Shown here: positions 9,356 to 21,110 of the stretch, in pieces
Layout: each line of letters starts with the position of its first letter
Position numbering within the stretch: the first letter of the stretch is position 1
DNA from: Candidatus Gastranaerophilales bacterium
GTDB lineage: Bacteria > Cyanobacteriota > Vampirovibrionia > Gastranaerophilales > Gastranaerophilaceae
Reading direction: 5' to 3'
Length of the DNA: 64,000 bases
Assembly: GCA_944323145.1 (NCBI GenBank)
Contig: CALURJ010000001.1
Span: 124,001-188,000 of the forward strand
Notes under the pieces: generated by a model
What the model was told of the DNA's origin: nothing
The model's input: only the letters and a program-made list of their open reading frames with translations
The model's database searches: none
Made by a program: the position numbers and the translations under genes

Positions 9356-10030
9356 ATGAAAAAAATTGCTTTTACATTGGCGGAAGTTTTGGTTACTTTA
9401 GGTATTCTTGGGGTAGTTTCCGCTGTTACAATGCCAACATTGATTCAAGGACATCAAAAAACTGTTTATGTTTCACAGTTGAAAAAAGTTTACTCAGATA
9501 TGAATCAGGTGTTTTTAAGATATAAAACAGATAGAAATGCTCTTAATTTACGAGAAGCTGGTAATTTAAATTCTAAAGACAAATTGTTGGATTTTTTCAA
9601 TAAATATATGAATGTTGTTTCTACCTGTACTTCAAATTGTTTTGATTATGATTTTAAAACAATTAATGGCCGTAAAAAGACTTTTACTTTTGACAGAAAT
9701 GTAGTTTTGTCATCAGGTGCTATTATTTGGTTTGACTATATGGGTAGTGATAATATTTTTGTTAGTCTATTAGTTGATGTTAATGGTGATAAGAATCCTA
9801 ATACTATGGGAAGAGATGTTTGGGCTTTATCAATAGATAATGATGGTAAAATGGATGATTTTATGTTTCAATTTTATAACACTTTAAAAGATGCTGGTGC
9901 AAATTTGGATGGTTATACAAATGTTTCTGATACTGAATTAAGAGAAAAAATTTTTGCAGGCAACTGTAGTGGTGATGGTACCGGATGTTTTAACAAAATA
10001 CTATTAGATAATTGGCAAATGAACTATTAA
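9356..10030 (+). CDS. Type IV pilin-like / pseudopilin protein
   Basis: This 224-residue protein has an N-terminal class III signal: MKKIA then FTLAEVLVTLGILGVVSA. The mature residue is Phe1 and the essential Glu is Glu5, the usual target for prepilin peptidase and N-methylation. The C-terminal half contains GRDVWALSID and ends with paired cysteines before a terminal D-N-W-Q-M-N-Y. The same ending (D/N-W-K-M-D/N-Y) and the G-R-D block occur in the two pseudopilins at 35196-36599, so they are paralogues. The role is presumably a type II secretion or type IV pilus filament component. It starts after GTGAGG and stands alone. Confidence 0.85.
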   Translation: MKKIAFTLAEVLVTLGILGVVSAVTMPTLIQGHQKTVYVSQLKKVYSDMNQVFLRYKTDRNALNLREAGNLNSKDKLLDFFNKYMNVVSTCTSNCFDYDFKTINGRKKTFTFDRNVVLSSGAIIWFDYMGSDNIFVSLLVDVNGDKNPNTMGRDVWALSIDNDGKMDDFMFQFYNTLKDAGANLDGYTNVSDTELREKIFAGNCSGDGTGCFNKILLDNWQMNY

Positions 10031-12695: not shown

Positions 12696-13673
12696 ATGAA
12701 TTTAACAAAAAAAGAAATAATAGATATTTTAAACTCTGATGACAATTCAGTTTTGGATACTGCTGACAAAATTCGTCATCAATATGTCGGTGATGGTGTT
12801 CATCTGCGCGGGTTAATTGAGTTTTCTAATATTTGTAAACGTAACTGCCTGTATTGCGGTTTGCAATCTAAAAATAAATCAGTTAAAAGATATAGACTTT
12901 CAAAAGATGAAATAATTAATCTTGCAAAAAACGGTGCGGCTCAAGGATATAAAACAATTGTTTTGCAATCGGGAGAGGATGACTTTTATTCGACGGATTT
13001 GCTGTGTGAGATTATTTGGAAAATCAAGTCGTTAGATGTCGCCCTAACTTTGAGTATAGGTGAAAAAACATTTGAGGAATATAAGGCATACAAAGAAGCG
13101 GGTGCAGACAGGTTTTTGTTGAGAATAGAAACAACAGATGAAAAACTTTATAAAAAAATGCATCCTTATGCAGATTTTGAAAATCGTAAAAGATGTTTAT
13201 TCGATTTAAAAAAGCTTGGTTATGAAACAGGGACTGGATGTCTTGTCGGGCTGCCCGGGCAGACTGTTGAATCACTGGCCGATGATATTCTGTTTTTTAA
13301 AGAATTAGATGCTGATATGATTGGTATAGGCCCTTTTATCCCTCATCCGCAAACACCATTGAAAAATGAGCAATCGGGAAATCTTGATTTGGCTGTGAAG
13401 GTTATGGCTTTAACAAGAATTTTGCTTCCGGATATAAATATTCCCGCAACAACAGCTATGGAATCTTTAAGAGCGGATGGCAGACTTTTAGCCTTGCAAA
13501 GCGGAGCAAATGTAGTTATGCCGAATGTAACGGATGAGTTTCATAAAAAATTGTACGAAATTTATCCAAATAAAATCAGTGCAGAGCGTAAGGAACTTGA
13601 AGATAAATTATTAAAAATTAACAGATTTGTTGTAAGAGAAAACTCTGGTTTTAGACACCATAAAGCGGAGTAA
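12696..13673 (+). CDS. hydE: [FeFe]-hydrogenase maturase HydE (radical SAM)
   Basis: This 325-residue radical SAM enzyme has the CxxxCxxC cluster site at Cys47, Cys51 and Cys54. It also has HydE-type blocks: RGLIEFSN before the cluster, TIVLQSGED, GYETGTGCLVGLPGQT, and GPFIPHPQTPL. HydE helps build the dithiolate ligand of the H-cluster; in known pathways it works with HydF and HydG, which are not in this window. Related BioB/PylB-type enzymes are the main alternative. The ATG lies 6 nt past an extended -10 box. The stop codon is in the loop of a hairpin. Confidence 0.85.
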   Translation: MNLTKKEIIDILNSDDNSVLDTADKIRHQYVGDGVHLRGLIEFSNICKRNCLYCGLQSKNKSVKRYRLSKDEIINLAKNGAAQGYKTIVLQSGEDDFYSTDLLCEIIWKIKSLDVALTLSIGEKTFEEYKAYKEAGADRFLLRIETTDEKLYKKMHPYADFENRKRCLFDLKKLGYETGTGCLVGLPGQTVESLADDILFFKELDADMIGIGPFIPHPQTPLKNEQSGNLDLAVKVMALTRILLPDINIPATTAMESLRADGRLLALQSGANVVMPNVTDEFHKKLYEIYPNKISAERKELEDKLLKINRFVVRENSGFRHHKAE

Positions 13674-13688
13674 AGCTCCGCTTTATGG
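13658..13688 (+). terminator. Perfect hairpin at hydE stop
   Basis: A 13-bp perfect inverted repeat (13658-13670 with 13676-13688) has a 5-nt loop. The hydE TAA is in the loop, and the first ATG of the broken ArnT-like frame (13685) is in the right arm. The T-run that follows is weak (TTAGTTATTT), so it may be an imperfect terminator or a junction palindrome. Confidence 0.5.
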
Positions 13689-14836
13689 TTAGTTATTTAC
13701 CTGTTGATTTAAATATTTGTCTCCATATAAATAAAAAATATTTCTGGTGGCTAACATACATATTTACGGGGCTTGCGGTAATGGCCAAAGGTATTCCTGG
13801 CTTTGTAATACCTGCCGTAACTATCTTGGTTTCAACAATAATATTCAAAACGTACAGAGAAACTTTAAGATATTTATTGGTTGGGATTTTTCTTTTTCTT
13901 ATAATTGTGCTGCCATGGCATATTTTAATGCTAAAGACTTATCCTGACCTATTTTTTAAGGAATATATTTATAAACATCATATTTTGAGATTTTTAGGTT
14001 CAGAGGTTATTCACAGAAGCCAGCCATGGTATTTTTATCTTTTGACTTTACTATGGGGATTATTTCCACATTCTTTTCTCCTGTTTCCAACAATCTTGCG
14101 GGGAACAAAGTTTGCTAAACCGATTATAACCGATAATTATTCAAAATTGTTAGCACTTAATCTTATAACTGTTTTGGTAACTTTGTTATTTTTTAGTGTC
14201 TCTAAAACAAAATTAATAACATATATTTTGCCCGTGTACCCGTTTATAAGTATTTTGACTGCGGATATCTGGAATAAATTTATCAAGAATGGTGATAAAG
14301 TTATTAAAAAGTCTTTATTTGTCATGGAATTAACTTTTTTGTTAGTGGCAGCTGCATTGTGTTTCGCAGGACTTGTTCTGCCTCTTTTTATTTATGAAAA
14401 TTTTATTTCTGTTCAATTGATTTCTATTGTTTTAATAGTTCCATTTGTTGTTTTTAATATATGGTTTATTCAACAAAATAAACGGTTTGAAATTTTTATT
14501 TCAATAATACTATTTATTTCCCTTTTATCAGGATTTTTAACTCCTTTTATTTATAAGTTTGATTATTCCTTCGGACAGAGTGATTTAATGAAATTTGCAA
14601 AACTTGCAAAAGAAAATAATTATACAATATCGACATACAAAACCGGTAAAAAATACAGTCTTTTGTATTATTCAAATTTAAAGCATGTCGACTTCCAGAT
14701 AGATGATGATTTGATGTGGCTGGATAAAGAATTAGATAAACAAAATCATCTCGTTATTACGAGAAATAAAGATATTGGAAATCTGTCCGTAAAAATCAAA
14801 ATAAAAGGGACAAAATATTCTGTTATTGAAAAATAA
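13685..14836 (+). pseudogene. N-terminally truncated ArnT-like (GT83/PMT) glycosyltransferase
   Basis: This 383-residue frame has about eight TM segments and then a soluble tail. It has the family block YFWWLTYIFTGLAVMAKGIPG (K-G-I-P-G at the start of a TM helix) and LPWHILML. Family members are 480-550 residues and begin with two TM helices and an extracytoplasmic loop holding the catalytic D-E acidic pair. That first part, about 150 residues, is absent, and hydE lies directly before it. The first ATG is inside a hairpin with no ribosome site. It is therefore almost certainly a remnant of a lipid-linked sugar transferase. Its stop overlaps the end of the convergent kinase fragment by 14 nt. 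Confidence 0.65.
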
Positions 14837-15155
14837 TTGTAAAACTTGTTTCTTTACCTTGGATGCTTTCAACCTGGACGGTTCCGTTATGAAGTTCTAC
14901 GATATTTTTTACTATAGCAAGTCCGAGCCCCGTTCCTCCGTTTTGACGGCTTCTTGCTTTATCTATTCTGTAAAATCGTTCAAAAATATGCTCAAGATGC
15001 CTGGGTTCAATTCCAATTCCGTAATCTTTGACCTGAAGTATAATTTGTCCGTCCTTTTTGTCAAGTGTGACATCTATTTTATCCGAGCCGGAATATCTTA
15101 AAGCATTTGTTAAAAGATTTGATAAAGCCGTAGAGAGTAATTCTTCATTGCCCAG
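14823..15155 (-). pseudogene. C-terminal fragment of a sensor histidine kinase
   Basis: The minus strand reads an open ATPase domain: F-L-G-N-E-E-L-L then the N-box ALSNLLTNALRYS, the G1-box KDYGIGI, the F-box HIFERFYR, and the G2-box GTGLGLAIV, ending SFTIIFQ-stop at 14823. The sensor, HAMP and His-box parts (normally over 250 residues upstream) are missing. Upstream in the same direction, the reading frame changes abruptly into a metallophosphoesterase at about 15150-15157. A deletion, or possibly an assembly join, fused the two genes out of frame. The fragment cannot work alone. Confidence 0.75.
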
Positions 15156-15793
15156 AAATGTCCTGAAATTATAGCAATTACATTGTTATGTTTGCTTAAA
15201 ATTTTCAGGTATTCTTCTTTTTTGTAAAGACTATGACTCCTAATCGGCGTATCAAACAGCGGAAAATGCTGTAAAATCACAACTTTTTTATTTGAATATT
15301 TATTCAGCATTTTATCAAGCCAGAGTAGTTCATTTTCTTTATAATATCCGTTAGGGCCGGGAATGATTTCTTTAACACCGTTCATTGTAATAAATACAAT
15401 ATCATTTTTCTTAAATATGTAATTTGTTTTTGAACTGTGATATGCGCCCAATTTTTTTCTTACTAACTTCATATACTTATCATGAGTAAGGTATTGGTTT
15501 CTTGACAAATCGTGGTTCCCGACTATAACGTAAGACTTAAATTTTAAATTTTTTATTATGTCAAGAAAAAGAGATAGATCTTCTTCTCTTGGTTTATCAA
15601 TATTATCACCTGTGAAAACAACGAAATCAATGTCATCATACTGTTTGTTTATATCTTCGACAAAATCCTGCAAATATTCGTAATTATTCTGCCCGAGGTG
15701 CACATCTGTAACCTGTATAAATTTAATACTTTCAGCATTCACTTTTATAAATAGTTCAAGAATTGTAAATAATAAAAATAACAATTGTTTCAT
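15110..15793 (-). pseudogene. C-terminally truncated calcineurin-like metallophosphoesterase
   Basis: This 227-residue frame starts with a signal peptide. It has the metal ligands of the fold in order: TDVHLG, FTGDNID, VGNHDLS and LQHFPLF. It then reaches the last motif as SGHF-W instead of SGHF-H. From there (about 15155) the DNA is the histidine kinase gene read in the wrong frame, giving about 14 foreign residues before a stop. The final His ligand and the C-terminus are gone. It was probably a secreted CpdA-like phosphoesterase. A normal-looking upstream start with AGAGA remains. Confidence 0.7.
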
Positions 15794-15931
15794 TCTCTAA
15801 ATATAGAAAATATTTGTTAGTTTTATGTTAGATTTACTTATAAAATTTGCTCTATATGCCTATTATATGTTCATGATAAACAATTTTTGTTATATAATAT
15901 TTAAAACGTATGTATTATGGAGAAAATGTTT

Positions 15932-16828
15932 ATGAAAAAGAGTTTATTGTTAGTTTTTGTTATAATGTTGTCTTTTTGTTGTACCGGTTGTATTAAGTCT
16001 TCATATAATATAGAAATTGATGATAAGGATAATGTTTCTGTTTCAAAAACTATGGCTATGAATTTATCTTTTTTTGAAAGTTATGATCCTAATTTTGATG
16101 ATAAATTTAAGGATTCAATTTTGGAATCTGAAGATGAATTTGAAAAAGACGGTTATGAAGTGGAAGAGTATTCTGACGGGACATATAGAGGGGTTTCTTT
16201 AAGTAAAAAAGGTATTAGATTTGAAGATGCATCAGAAGTTTTTAAAAATGATTTTGTTGATGAAGATAAATTATTTTCGTTAGAAAAAAAGGGCTTAAGC
16301 AAAATTTATAAGATTCATTTGTTTTATGACCCTAAAAAGGCAATGGTGCAAATGTCCGAAGGGAAAACAGACGAGTTTTCAATGAATAATTCCGAAGATG
16401 ATTCTTTAATAATAAATGGTGAAGCAGATGAGGTTGTTTCTAAAACTAAAGAAACTGACCCGAATACAGGTGATGTTACCGAAACTACTCATTATGCAAG
16501 CGGTGCGGTTTCTACAACAAAATATAATCCTCAACAACAAGAGCAATTCGGGAATGCAATAGGAAATTATTTAAATTCTGTTCCGGGTTTAAAGCCTGTT
16601 TTCGAAATGACAATAAAAATTCCAGAAAAAGCTATTAAACATAATGCGACTAAAGTTATAAGCGATACAGAGTATTATTGGGATTTCTCTAATTCAAACG
16701 GTATTGCGGAAGTGGTTCTTGAGTACAAAAAATTTGATTTTTCGTCATTAGGCCCTATTTTTTCTGTTTTAATAATTGCAGTAATTATGGGGGCAGCCTT
16801 TGTAATGTTTAAAAATGACGGAAACTAA
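15932..16828 (+). CDS. Putative lipoprotein with C-terminal membrane helix
   Basis: The start at 15932 is 9 nt after GGAG. The 298-residue protein begins with a signal peptide ending in C-T-G-C, a plausible lipobox. A soluble region rich in Asp, Glu and Ser follows, then one TM helix (about residues 268-290) and a short charged tail. The first residues after the lipobox and the C-terminal beta-stranded part before the helix resemble LppM-type domains, but this is not certain. It would be anchored at both ends to the membrane. The function is unknown. Confidence 0.65.
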   Translation: MKKSLLLVFVIMLSFCCTGCIKSSYNIEIDDKDNVSVSKTMAMNLSFFESYDPNFDDKFKDSILESEDEFEKDGYEVEEYSDGTYRGVSLSKKGIRFEDASEVFKNDFVDEDKLFSLEKKGLSKIYKIHLFYDPKKAMVQMSEGKTDEFSMNNSEDDSLIINGEADEVVSKTKETDPNTGDVTETTHYASGAVSTTKYNPQQQEQFGNAIGNYLNSVPGLKPVFEMTIKIPEKAIKHNATKVISDTEYYWDFSNSNGIAEVVLEYKKFDFSSLGPIFSVLIIAVIMGAAFVMFKNDGN

Positions 16829-16904
16829 ATTATACAGATTCTTATAATAAAAAATTTAAAACTGCAAATCAATTCTGTATCTAATATCTAATACACAAAT
16901 AACA

Positions 16905-16934
16905 TTGACGGATTTTGGTATCAGGTGGTATAAT
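16905..16934 (+). promoter_or_regulatory. Promoter of the 16966 gene
   Basis: TTGACG (16905-16910), an 18-nt spacer and TATAAT (16929-16934) preceded by TGG form a sigma-70 promoter with an extended -10. The predicted start is about 16941, leaving a leader of about 25 nt with AAGGAA before the ATG at 16966. Confidence 0.75.
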
Positions 16935-16965
16935 AATCAGATACGTTATAAACAAGGAATCTTTA

Positions 16966-17490
16966 ATGAAAAATTGTATCATCGCATTAATGTGTTTATT
17001 ATTAGCGCAGCCTGTATTTGCATTTGGCAGTTATAAAAAGCTGGATTTCCTAAACGGCGAATCAGCTCCTCAGTCAAACAAAATACTTTATGAATATGTC
17101 TTGAAGGAACAAAATATGACACCTGAGGAGATTAAAGATTTTGCAAGAATTGAACCACAGTCAGTAAAAGCTTTTGAGGTTGACTTGAATGATGACGGGA
17201 CTAAAGAAATTTTGGGAGTTGTCTATTCAACACTTTATATGGGTACAGCCGGGTATTCCTTGTTTATCTTGCAGTTACAAAATGGTGAATATAAAAATAT
17301 AGCTTATGTGCTAAACCTTGAACCGCAAAAAGAATTAAAGATATTGAATGCCAAAACAAATGGCTATAGGGATATAAAGTTGAATGGTTCAGTAGCATAT
17401 AAATTTAAACCGTTTATTGCGAAGTACAGAAACGGGTACTACAAAACTGATTACCAAACGAAAAGTTTAGAAAGAGCACTTCAGCAGTAG
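16966..17490 (+). CDS. Secreted protein with an FG-GAP/EF-like calcium-loop motif
   Basis: The start at 16966 follows AAGGAA. The 174-residue product has a signal peptide ending V-F-A-F. Near residue 75 is E-V-D-L-N-D-D-G-T-K-E-I-L, an acidic D-x-N-D-D-G-x-x-E loop like those in FG-GAP and dockerin-like calcium sites. The rest is beta-rich. Known examples occur in secreted binding proteins; the specific role is unknown. It stands alone with its own promoter and a probable terminator downstream. Confidence 0.65.
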   Translation: MKNCIIALMCLLLAQPVFAFGSYKKLDFLNGESAPQSNKILYEYVLKEQNMTPEEIKDFARIEPQSVKAFEVDLNDDGTKEILGVVYSTLYMGTAGYSLFILQLQNGEYKNIAYVLNLEPQKELKILNAKTNGYRDIKLNGSVAYKFKPFIAKYRNGYYKTDYQTKSLERALQQ

Positions 17491-17519
17491 GCAAAGAAAT
17501 ATAGATAGCATAGCAGGAT

Positions 17520-17546
17520 AGGTATTACAAAGTAATACCTCTATTT
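17520..17546 (+). terminator. Probable terminator after 17490
   Basis: A 9-bp stem (17520-17528 with 17532-17540) with a 3-nt loop is followed by CTATTTT. The short U-run makes it weak. Confidence 0.45.
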
Positions 17547-17617
17547 TGAGATGAAAAAAGAAAGGCGCGGAATAATGTAAATTTTACACAAATTTGTTTT
17601 TAAGGTAGAATAGTCAA

Positions 17618-18142
17618 ATGAAAAACAAAATTTTAATCTCAGTTTTAATAATACTCATATTGTTTTTATGTTTCAGTTCTTATATTGTTTTGAAACAGAA
17701 TAAACAGCTTAAATCTTTAGAAAATCAGCTTTCTGAGCGGGAGAGGATTATTGCGGGCTTGAAAGAAGAAAAAAATAATATAATGCCTGAACCCGGAATT
17801 CATCCTATTGAAAAAGCTGTACAGAACTGTATGAAAAAAGAAGATTACACAACAGCCGGAATGTCTAAATGTGTTGAGGATTCTATAAATGATTGGAACA
17901 AAGAAATTGACAAATATCTCTCGCTTTTAAAAGACATACTGCCGGAAGACAAATACAAGTTGCTGAAAATTTCTCAAGAAAAATGGGAAGAATACAAGAA
18001 CGCTCAGTGGCAATTGTTAGAAGCGGGTTTAAGTGAAAAAGACGGAACAATGTATATAAATATCTTAAGCGGAGACAAAGCAGACGTTGTGGAAAAGCGT
18101 GCAAAAGATTTATCTGGATTTTATTTTGAACTGACTGATTAG
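17618..18142 (+). CDS. Membrane-anchored protein with LprI-like (DUF1311) domain
   Basis: This 174-residue protein has an N-terminal TM helix (residues 5-25) followed by a coiled-coil (about 28-50). The C-terminal domain (about 65-170) has the lysozyme-inhibitor LprI pattern: C, then T-x-x-M-x-x-C, then W and L-K-I-S-Q-E-K-W-E-x-Y. LprI domains bind and inhibit lysozyme in some bacteria, a possible defence against host enzymes here by inference. There is no strong Shine-Dalgarno (AAGGTAGAATAGTCAA). Confidence 0.75.
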   Translation: MKNKILISVLIILILFLCFSSYIVLKQNKQLKSLENQLSERERIIAGLKEEKNNIMPEPGIHPIEKAVQNCMKKEDYTTAGMSKCVEDSINDWNKEIDKYLSLLKDILPEDKYKLLKISQEKWEEYKNAQWQLLEAGLSEKDGTMYINILSGDKADVVEKRAKDLSGFYFELTD

Positions 18143-18273
18143 TTTTATTCTGTCTTATTTCGTTTAGTAGCAAAACTATAAGGAGAAAACTATGTATGAC
18201 AGTATTGAGTAAAAAAAACTACTTCACTACACAAATATTACACAAAACTACAAAAAGTACCTGAAATTTTACA

Positions 18274-18311
18274 ATAAAAAATCCGCCTGTATTTCAGGCG
18301 GGTTCTTTTTT
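18274..18311. terminator. Bidirectional terminator (17618 gene / tRNA-Arg)
   Basis: A 7-bp GC-rich stem (18283-18289 with 18295-18301) with loop TATTT has a T-run on the plus side and an A-run on the minus side. On the minus strand it lies directly after tRNA-Arg(CCG) and ends that transcript. Confidence 0.8.
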
Positions 18312-18384
18312 GTGCCTGATGCGATTCGAACGCACGACCTTTTCCTTCGGAGGGAAACGCTCTATCCAACTGAGCTACAGGCAC
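18311..18384 (-). tRNA. tRNA-Arg (anticodon CCG)
   Basis: The minus strand gives acceptor GTGCCTG/CAGGCAC, an anticodon loop with CCG (CGG codons) and a T-loop TTCGAAT. The CCA tail is not encoded; an A-run follows the discriminator base. It lies 12 nt after the LCP gene stop on the same strand and just before a terminator, so it is probably processed from the 3' end of the mgtE-LCP mRNA. Confidence 0.95.
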
Positions 18385-18396
18385 ATAGTCAGGAAA

Positions 18397-19742: not shown

Positions 19743-21110
19743 TTACATAACCTTAATTAAATAGGTTGACACGAGAGTAAAGTATATTGCCAATCCTAAA
19801 ACATCAATTGTTGTCGCAATAACAGGCCCTGATGCGACTGCAGGATCTACTTTCATTGCTTTAAGTGCAAAAGGTGTAAATGTACCGATAACTGTTGCCA
19901 TTGTCATATTTATAGCCATTGCAATCCCTACAATTGCTCCGAGTTCTATACTATGCTGCCAGCCCCAGGTAACTAATGTTACAAGAATTCCGAAAATTGA
20001 GCCTATTACAAATCCGATAAAAGTCTCTCTTAAAATATGATGAACCGCAGAATTTAAAGTAACCTGACCTGTGGAAAGGCCGCGAACCATAAGTGTAATA
20101 CTTTGTGTTCCGATGTTTCCGCCAAGACCTGCAAGGAGAGGCATAAAAATTGCAATTATTGGGAGTGCCTGTAATGTATGGTCAAAATGATGACCTACAT
20201 TTACGGCAATAAATTCTCCTATAAGTGTGATAAAAAGCCATGGTGTTCTTGCTCTTATTGCGTTTAAAACATTCCCTGACAGAATTTCGTCTTCATCAAC
20301 AATTTCTGTTGAAATACCTGAAGATTGGTAAATTTCTTCAGTTGTTTCTTCTTCGAACAAATCATGTACATCATCCCACGTAATCATCCCTTTTAGCCTG
20401 TTGTAAAGATCTACTACAGGAAGGGCATTGTACTGGTATTTCATAAATTCATCAATAATATAATCGCTGTAATCATCAACATGAAGCTTAACAATATCGG
20501 AAATCATTATGTCTTCTACTTTTTGATTTATAGGTGATGTTAGAAGTTTTCGCAATGATACAACGCCAAGAAGGTGATTTTGTTTATCAACCACATAAAC
20601 GTAATAAAGTTCCATATTGTCTTGTTCGGCTTTAATTCTTATGTGGTTTAAGACATCCTGAACGCTCATGTCCGAATTAACCGTTAAAACAACCGGGTTC
20701 ATAATACCGCCAGCAGTGTCTTCGTTATATGTTAAAAGTTCTCTGACTTCTTCTGAAAATTTGTGGGGAAGTTTGTCTAAATATGTTTCACTTTCATCTT
20801 CTTCCATATCCCCAAGAACGTCTGCAGCAGCGTCATGAGGTAATTGTGTCAAAATTTGTGATGCAAGATTCTCGTCAATATCGCTTAAGAGTTCAACCTG
20901 CATCTGGGCGGGTAAATATTCCATTAAATCGGCAGCTTTAGCTAAATCCAACAGTTTAAAACACTGAAGTCTTTCTTCGGGTTTTAACTCCTGAAAAATA
21001 TCGGCCAAATCAGCAACGTGATAGCTGTTCAGTTCATCTTTGAGCTGAATAACGGTTTCATCACTCATGATTTCGCGTATTCTGTCGATAATGTTTTGAA
21101 CGTTCATCAT
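19743..21110 (-). CDS. mgtE: Magnesium transporter MgtE
   Basis: This 455-residue protein has the full MgtE plan. The N-terminal superhelical domain (1-130) has LPAQMQ and LPHDAAADVLGDM. Tandem CBS domains (about 130-255) follow, with NEETAGG-type EDTAGGIMNP. Then come five TM helices with GLGGNIGTQSITLMVRGLSTGQV and the pore block. It is a gated Mg2+ channel/transporter whose N and CBS domains sense cytosolic Mg2+. Two ATGs start the frame; TATAAT lies 6 nt before the first, with no ribosome site. Confidence 0.96.
   Translation of the reverse strand: MMNVQNIIDRIREIMSDETVIQLKDELNSYHVADLADIFQELKPEERLQCFKLLDLAKAADLMEYLPAQMQVELLSDIDENLASQILTQLPHDAAADVLGDMEEDESETYLDKLPHKFSEEVRELLTYNEDTAGGIMNPVVLTVNSDMSVQDVLNHIRIKAEQDNMELYYVYVVDKQNHLLGVVSLRKLLTSPINQKVEDIMISDIVKLHVDDYSDYIIDEFMKYQYNALPVVDLYNRLKGMITWDDVHDLFEEETTEEIYQSSGISTEIVDEDEILSGNVLNAIRARTPWLFITLIGEFIAVNVGHHFDHTLQALPIIAIFMPLLAGLGGNIGTQSITLMVRGLSTGQVTLNSAVHHILRETFIGFVIGSIFGILVTLVTWGWQHSIELGAIVGIAMAINMTMATVIGTFTPFALKAMKVDPAVASGPVIATTIDVLGLAIYFTLVSTYLIKVM

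Follow-up and report, generated by a model that had tools for sequence, protein, structure and literature searches.

A probable remnant of a horizontally circulating two-component and ArnT-like gene module, with a retained predicted operator, in a Gastranaerophilales genome

We describe a locus holding three truncated genes in the genome of a Candidatus Gastranaerophilales bacterium, a metagenome bin of 35 contigs with an estimated completeness of 99.95%. The window, that is, the whole stretch of DNA that was analysed, comprises 64,000 nucleotides (G000:C1:124001-188000). It was compared with a set of 33 genomes of the same genus, one of which is the source genome (G000); the DNA search for the deletion joint was run against the other 32. 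Between hydE and an LppM-like lipoprotein gene, an ArnT-like open reading frame lies on the plus strand and remnants of a histidine kinase and a metallophosphoesterase lie on the minus strand, in the following setting:

12696-13673, plus strand: hydE (radical SAM, HydE-like), complete, left neighbor of the scar (Radical_SAM E 5.4e-23; tail compared with four relatives and G032)
13657-13689, plus strand: hairpin at the left joint, its 5' arm an inverted copy of its 3' arm
13672-13718, plus strand: probable fragment of ArnT-like codons ~62-77 (33 of 47 columns in the alignment to G008; convincing only for the first ~15 bases)
13685-14836, plus strand: truncated ArnT-like GT-C glycosyltransferase (homologous to residues ~159-535 of 535, starting at ~13725-13730)
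~14827-15156, minus strand: histidine kinase remnant, HATPase_c domain only (E 2.6e-31; residues ~353-467 of 467)
15110-15793, minus strand: truncated metallophosphoesterase with a short out-of-frame tail (residues 1-214 of 263)
15155-15159, strand not given: out-of-frame deletion joint of kinase and phosphoesterase; kinase end, entire response regulator and phosphoesterase end missing
15816-15831, minus strand: predicted response-regulator operator CTAACATAAAACTAAC, a direct repeat with an 11-bp period, 22 bases before the phosphoesterase ATG
15832-15912, strand not given: right edge of the scar, without assigned homology
15917-16828, plus strand: LppM-like lipoprotein gene, right neighbor, also divergent from G032 (PF21946 E 7e-4, under the PF21946 cut-off)
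16880-18201, plus strand: recently transferred block with a 191-aa ORF and an LprI-like ORF (95% identical to G017:C3, 93% to G020:C50)
18310-18385, minus strand: tRNA-Arg (ccg), right border of the patchwork

A preliminary description of this DNA had depicted an ArnT-like transferase lacking its first ~150 residues, a histidine kinase reduced to its ATPase end, and a metallophosphoesterase cut before its last metal histidine, and comparison with whole homologs bears this out. The 383-aa ArnT-like ORF aligns with residues 159/160-535 of the whole 535-aa homolog in G008, without the N-terminal region in which DETR and EKPP align to 5ezm, and the kinase remnant lacks its sensor and HisKA domain. 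The phosphoesterase remnant, which retains the DxH, GDN, GNHD and HFP stretch, reads GHFW where G008 and G032 read GHYH, with the last 49 residues and the GHxH histidine missing.

The kinase and the phosphoesterase had also been read as joined in different frames at a deletion junction. Their matches meet at 15157-15159 in G000, and the same two stretches lie 1907 (G008), 1907 (G032), 1915 (G003) and 1912 bases (G031) apart in four relatives; the response-regulator gene found between them in these four genomes is wholly absent from the scar. The proposed search of relatives for intact genes located whole homologs in the same order in G008, G032 and G003, which, together with a site without the insert in G032, supports the deletion reading. 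Except for an overhang of 19 bases in G016, which has a full-length phosphoesterase, no DNA match runs through the joint among the other 32 genomes of the genus, and intact alleles with the same joints, raised beforehand as a point against a deletion, were not found in that set. Three bases (AAT) are compatible with either side of the joint (read by eye, without statistics), and up to 8 of 9 bases of microhomology occur at one joint in G106 (likewise without statistics); no deletion mechanism is claimed from either.

At the left joint, the ArnT-like ORF begins inside a hairpin at the end of hydE, as previously noted, and this hairpin is real: the stretch 13640-13710 has a folding energy of -28.1 kcal/mol (z -7.05), and none of 200 shuffles was equally stable. 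The last five codons of hydE (HHKAE) and its stop codon lie inside the hairpin; because hydE tails vary among the relatives compared, the gene is not broken, and hydE of G032 is open to its end. Bases 13672-13686 of the hairpin are identical to ArnT codons 62-66 of G008 at 14 of 15 positions, and a 30-base query (13671-13700) scored 14 in G008, G032 and G003 versus a highest score of 11 among 408 control pieces taken from the window. Because of this match, the ArnT-like gene has probably suffered a further internal deletion, which would have removed codons ~78-158. The hairpin sequence is unique in the genome at 0 mismatches. A dispersed repeat was rejected as the cause of the left joint, as no other copy occurs in the genome at 0-2 mismatches; at 3 mismatches there are three other places, and a backward control pattern gave one on each strand. 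A scan called the hairpin terminator-like, but its T tail is interrupted, and a functional terminator is not relied on here. The ArnT remnant had no relative in one scan of viral contigs.

In the close relative G032, hydE, the LppM-like gene and tRNA-Arg stand in direct succession without the insert; 112 bases separate hydE from the LppM-like gene, and the flanks are 93-94% identical to those of G000. Thus, the flanks of the scar are true neighbors, and the insert is extra in G000 or, as is possible, a copy was lost at this site in G032 instead of gained in G000. Over the first fourteen 60-base bins of hydE (12696-13535), identity to G032 ranges from 0.82 to 0.97; it then falls to 0.80, 0.65 and 0.45, and is back at 0.97 past tRNA-Arg (at 18350). 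The dS to G032 is 1.17 for the LppM-like gene and 0.46 for the whole of hydE, and ranges from 0.03 to 0.36 for thyX, nhaC, the 12306 ORF, the 5' part of hydE, LCP and mgtE. The block at 16880-18201 is a recent transfer into the hydE/tRNA-Arg interval, the hydE match in G017 being only 72% despite the 95% identity of the block. Given the drop in identity, the dS of the LppM-like gene and the G017-like block, the interval is a patchwork of exchanged or inserted DNA. Against the whole module of G032, dS of the remnants reaches 1.0 (phosphoesterase), 1.5 (ArnT) and 3.1 (kinase piece), far above the flanks, and the remnants are therefore not vertical copies of the same G032 locus. The site of the module in G032 was also considered as the source of the scar and rejected; contig C10 of G000, which matches L036:1-2515, terminates in a repeat before the module is reached and is uninformative on a second copy.

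Other stretches of the two genomes differ in their divergence as well. A 2.5-kb stretch with a MATE transporter and its neighbors (G000:C10:195-2709 versus G032 L036:1-2515) is 99.7% identical, compared with 93-94% for the scar flanks, pointing to either recent exchange or shared contamination. In the window, the mgtE-like gene at 19743-21110 has a dS of 0.03 to G032 versus 0.28 for the adjoining LCP gene, another sign of recent recombination, and a prepilin-like ORF (9356-10030) separates stretches that adjoin each other in G032 (L039 3544/3547), which is another recent gain or loss.

None of the three remnants carries a stop or frameshift, and they are open over 383 (ArnT), ~110 (kinase) and 227 codons (phosphoesterase). 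The dN/dS of remnant versus whole gene was 0.119-0.171 for ArnT (whole versus whole, 0.168-0.178), 0.047-0.093 for the kinase (0.107-0.247), and 0.072-0.094 for the phosphoesterase against G008, G032 and G003, dS to G031 and G033 being infinite (0.098-0.144 for whole pairs with finite dS). These values are as low as those of whole genes, the breakage being too young, or dS too saturated, for relaxed constraint to show. With dS close to saturation or past it, dN/dS dates events poorly here; within that limit, the open frames and the dN/dS resembling that of whole genes suggest that the divergence was mostly built up under constraint and that the breakage came late.

The module exists in other genomes in whole and broken form. 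Whole modules with the same gene order are present in G008, G032 and G003, and in G031 too except for ArnT, of which residues 1-87 and 459-535 and a short middle island are left (read by eye). In-frame fusions of regulator and kinase ends occur in G033 (L038:5376-5840, minus strand) and G021 (L058:3589-4038, plus strand), and these would be remnants or, conceivably, small new proteins. ArnT 1-188, regulator 83-142 and phosphoesterase 1-76 adjoin one another in G106, and ArnT 427-535, with a gap, lies ~59 kb from a complete phosphoesterase in G128; each set of remnants differs between genomes. In the genus, at least seven of the 33 genomes are holders by regulator, kinase or ArnT evidence (G000, G003, G008, G010, G021, G031 and G032), with regulators taken among the matches listed, so that weak fragments may be missed; G016 and G019, which have only a phosphoesterase of the module type (58-61%), were not counted. 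The module is broken in three of these seven (G000, G021 and G031), compared with none of the 33 paralogous phosphoesterases (42-47%), stop-free in every genome of the genus (one-sided probability 0.0035); without G000, the finding itself, the figures are 2/6 versus 0/32 (probability 0.021), in a comparison that is small and post hoc. The ArnT-like paralog (43-48%) is full length in 29 of the 33 genomes, is split between two contigs in G016, and was not found in three; the full-length paralog of G008 is marked with one TAA.

The predicted operator of the scar is the only match in the window at up to 2 mismatches (0.09 expected) and is identical to the commonest form of the box; it is retained although the adjacent regulator gene is lost. 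Across 64 loci (793,909 bases in total, with short loci and two duplicates left out), CTAAC-N6-CTAAC has 18 matches and each other spacing from N2 to N12 gives 0-1, while the reversed motif, used as a control, gives 1-4 per spacing and 2 at N6. Because the loci were chosen for holding module genes, the spacing control is the real test of the operator. The 18 boxes precede phosphoesterase genes (8), ArnT-like genes (7) and GT2/GT9 genes (3). In the last group, the boxes L080:3115, L081:10670 and L084:7200 stand before two GT2 genes and one GT9 gene, which are candidates for further regulon members. Among 13 aligned upstream regions of module-type or related phosphoesterases, the repeat is exact in 8, has one mismatch in 2 (G033 and G010), and is absent from 3 (G019, G016 and G127), as it is upstream of the phosphoesterase paralog; the G106 scar retains both outer boxes. 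In the whole module of G008, the regulator combines Response_reg and Trans_reg_C domains and the kinase HisKA and HATPase_c, and CTAAC-N6-CTAAC is probably the operator of this regulator. Direct repeats at an 11-bp centre-to-centre distance are also described for the box of ArcA, an OmpR/PhoB-family regulator, (PMC3798270); the module box shares this architecture of two repeats and differs in its sequence, the predicted CTAAC-N6-CTAAC.

The whole ArnT-like protein shows homology to 5ezm (E 1.8e-26); its score of 151.3 bits, like the 95.5 bits of the remnant, lies under the ArnT cut-off of 567 bits (PRK13279 equivalog). In the whole or near-whole loci L080, L083 and L076, the regulator and kinase genes lie beside ArnT-like, GT2 and YdjC-family deacetylase genes; the ArnT-like ORF of L076 is short (459 aa), with residues ~351-417 missing in frame. 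The GT2 proteins of these loci are PgfS/ArnC-like, under both family cut-offs, and GT2 proteins align along the length of the ArnC model with 129-141 bits versus a cut-off of 529. Such gene content suggests that the whole module places sugar attachment to the envelope under two-component control. It resembles the Arn/Pmr operon (ArnT 5ezm, ArnC) in the homology of its ArnT-like protein to 5ezm and the match of its GT2 proteins to ArnC, and differs from it in that its proteins fall well under both cut-offs. Francisella FlmF/NaxD/FlmK is a parallel to the module. The Lgm proteins of Bordetella are presumably ArnT-, GT2- and YdjC-like. An Lgm-like gene set (ArnT-like, GT2, YdjC-like and two-component system) is recognized here by gene content only and is absent from the G000 scar. 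The lgmA-C genes are described as a Bvg-controlled route to glucosamine on lipid A (PMC4993483), a two-component-controlled sugar modification with similar gene content; unlike it, the module has an OmpR/PhoB-type regulator with its own predicted box, an added phosphoesterase, and scores under the ArnT and ArnC cut-offs. Among the papers listed on Gastranaerophilales pseudogenes, Melainabacteria arnT and Gastranaerophilales two-component systems, titles and abstract openings contained nothing on this module.

Taken together, sequence comparison makes it highly probable that the locus is the decayed remnant of a horizontally circulating module, left as a late deletion scar. The preliminary description had allowed for an assembly error, in which the 2.2-kb stretch would be a chimera from the assembler or from binning. 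The source is a metagenome bin in 35 contigs, and for the split hydG and hydA of a termite melainabacterium one study was unable to separate pseudogenes from artefacts (PMC5877343); however, the outer flanks belong together according to G032, an artefact would need three or four joints within 2.2 kb between two genes that belong together, and other genomes carry further internal deletions of the same module, which leaves such an error most improbable. A more substantial alternative is that the scar was not made in G000, and that an already broken copy was imported with a recombined block reaching from the 3' end of hydE to tRNA-Arg. The 3' end of hydE and the LppM-like gene are indeed also divergent from G032, and the right part of the interval is a recent transfer, but neither a donor with the same joints nor a close donor for the scar was found among the 33 genus genomes. 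Since the closest relatives of the right block are not those of the LppM-like gene, the interval is not one single import, and we regard the arrival of a ready-broken copy as a real possibility that falls short of being probable.

Finally, the fragments might be kept for use, as an ArnT-tail membrane protein, a truncated phosphoesterase, a spare ATPase domain or a decoy operator. Long open frames, low dN/dS, an operator identical to the commonest form, and the in-frame regulator::kinase fusions in G033 and G021 would fit such a role, yet each piece lacks residues required for activity (the DETR/EKPP region of ArnT; the GHxH histidine and last 49 residues of the phosphoesterase; the sensor and HisKA of the kinase), and the remnant sets vary by genome, unlike a selected product. 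We therefore consider retention for use very unlikely, and the truncated genes have probably lost their function. Decay after transfer has precedents: pseudogenes are enriched in putative transfers (PMC522871) and young pseudogenes are quickly removed (PMC2916853). Like such pseudogenes of failed horizontal transfer, the module would be transferred, accessory, disabled and removed piecemeal; unlike them, the same module is caught at different stages in several genomes, and a regulatory box outlives the adjacent regulator gene.

If the locus is a decayed remnant, the ancestral module would have had the order phosphoesterase - OmpR/PhoB-family response regulator - histidine kinase - (EamA) - ArnT-like transferase. 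Where the module is whole, its regulator would probably bind CTAAC-N6-CTAAC before the phosphoesterase and ArnT-like genes, and, once bound, would activate a pathway for attaching a sugar to the cell envelope. A module copy would have arrived between hydE and tRNA-Arg in G000 by transfer or recombination, and at least two, probably three, deletions would have followed, taking the start of ArnT, probably its codons ~78-158, and the middle of kinase, regulator and phosphoesterase. The outcome would be the islands now seen in their original order, with one operator and no regulator.

The scar is ordinary, recent gene decay of an accessory module; it is new that the regulator is missing, that the hairpin probably marks an extra ArnT deletion, that the setting is a patchwork, that the breakage recurs, and that an operator can be predicted. 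More speculatively, and doubtful as it stands, Gastranaerophilales might share a horizontally circulating two-component regulon with the specific operator CTAACA-N4-AACTAAC. It would control decoration of the envelope with sugar in an Arn/Lgm-like way, and repeated gain followed by internal breakage would leave scars (left operators, regulator::kinase fusions) that record recent reversals of selection in the gut. With one module present in several states, from whole to islands, its loss becomes countable, and the comparison of broken with whole copies makes testable predictions of the operator and regulon that belong to an uncharacterised two-component system of these non-photosynthetic gut relatives of cyanobacteria.
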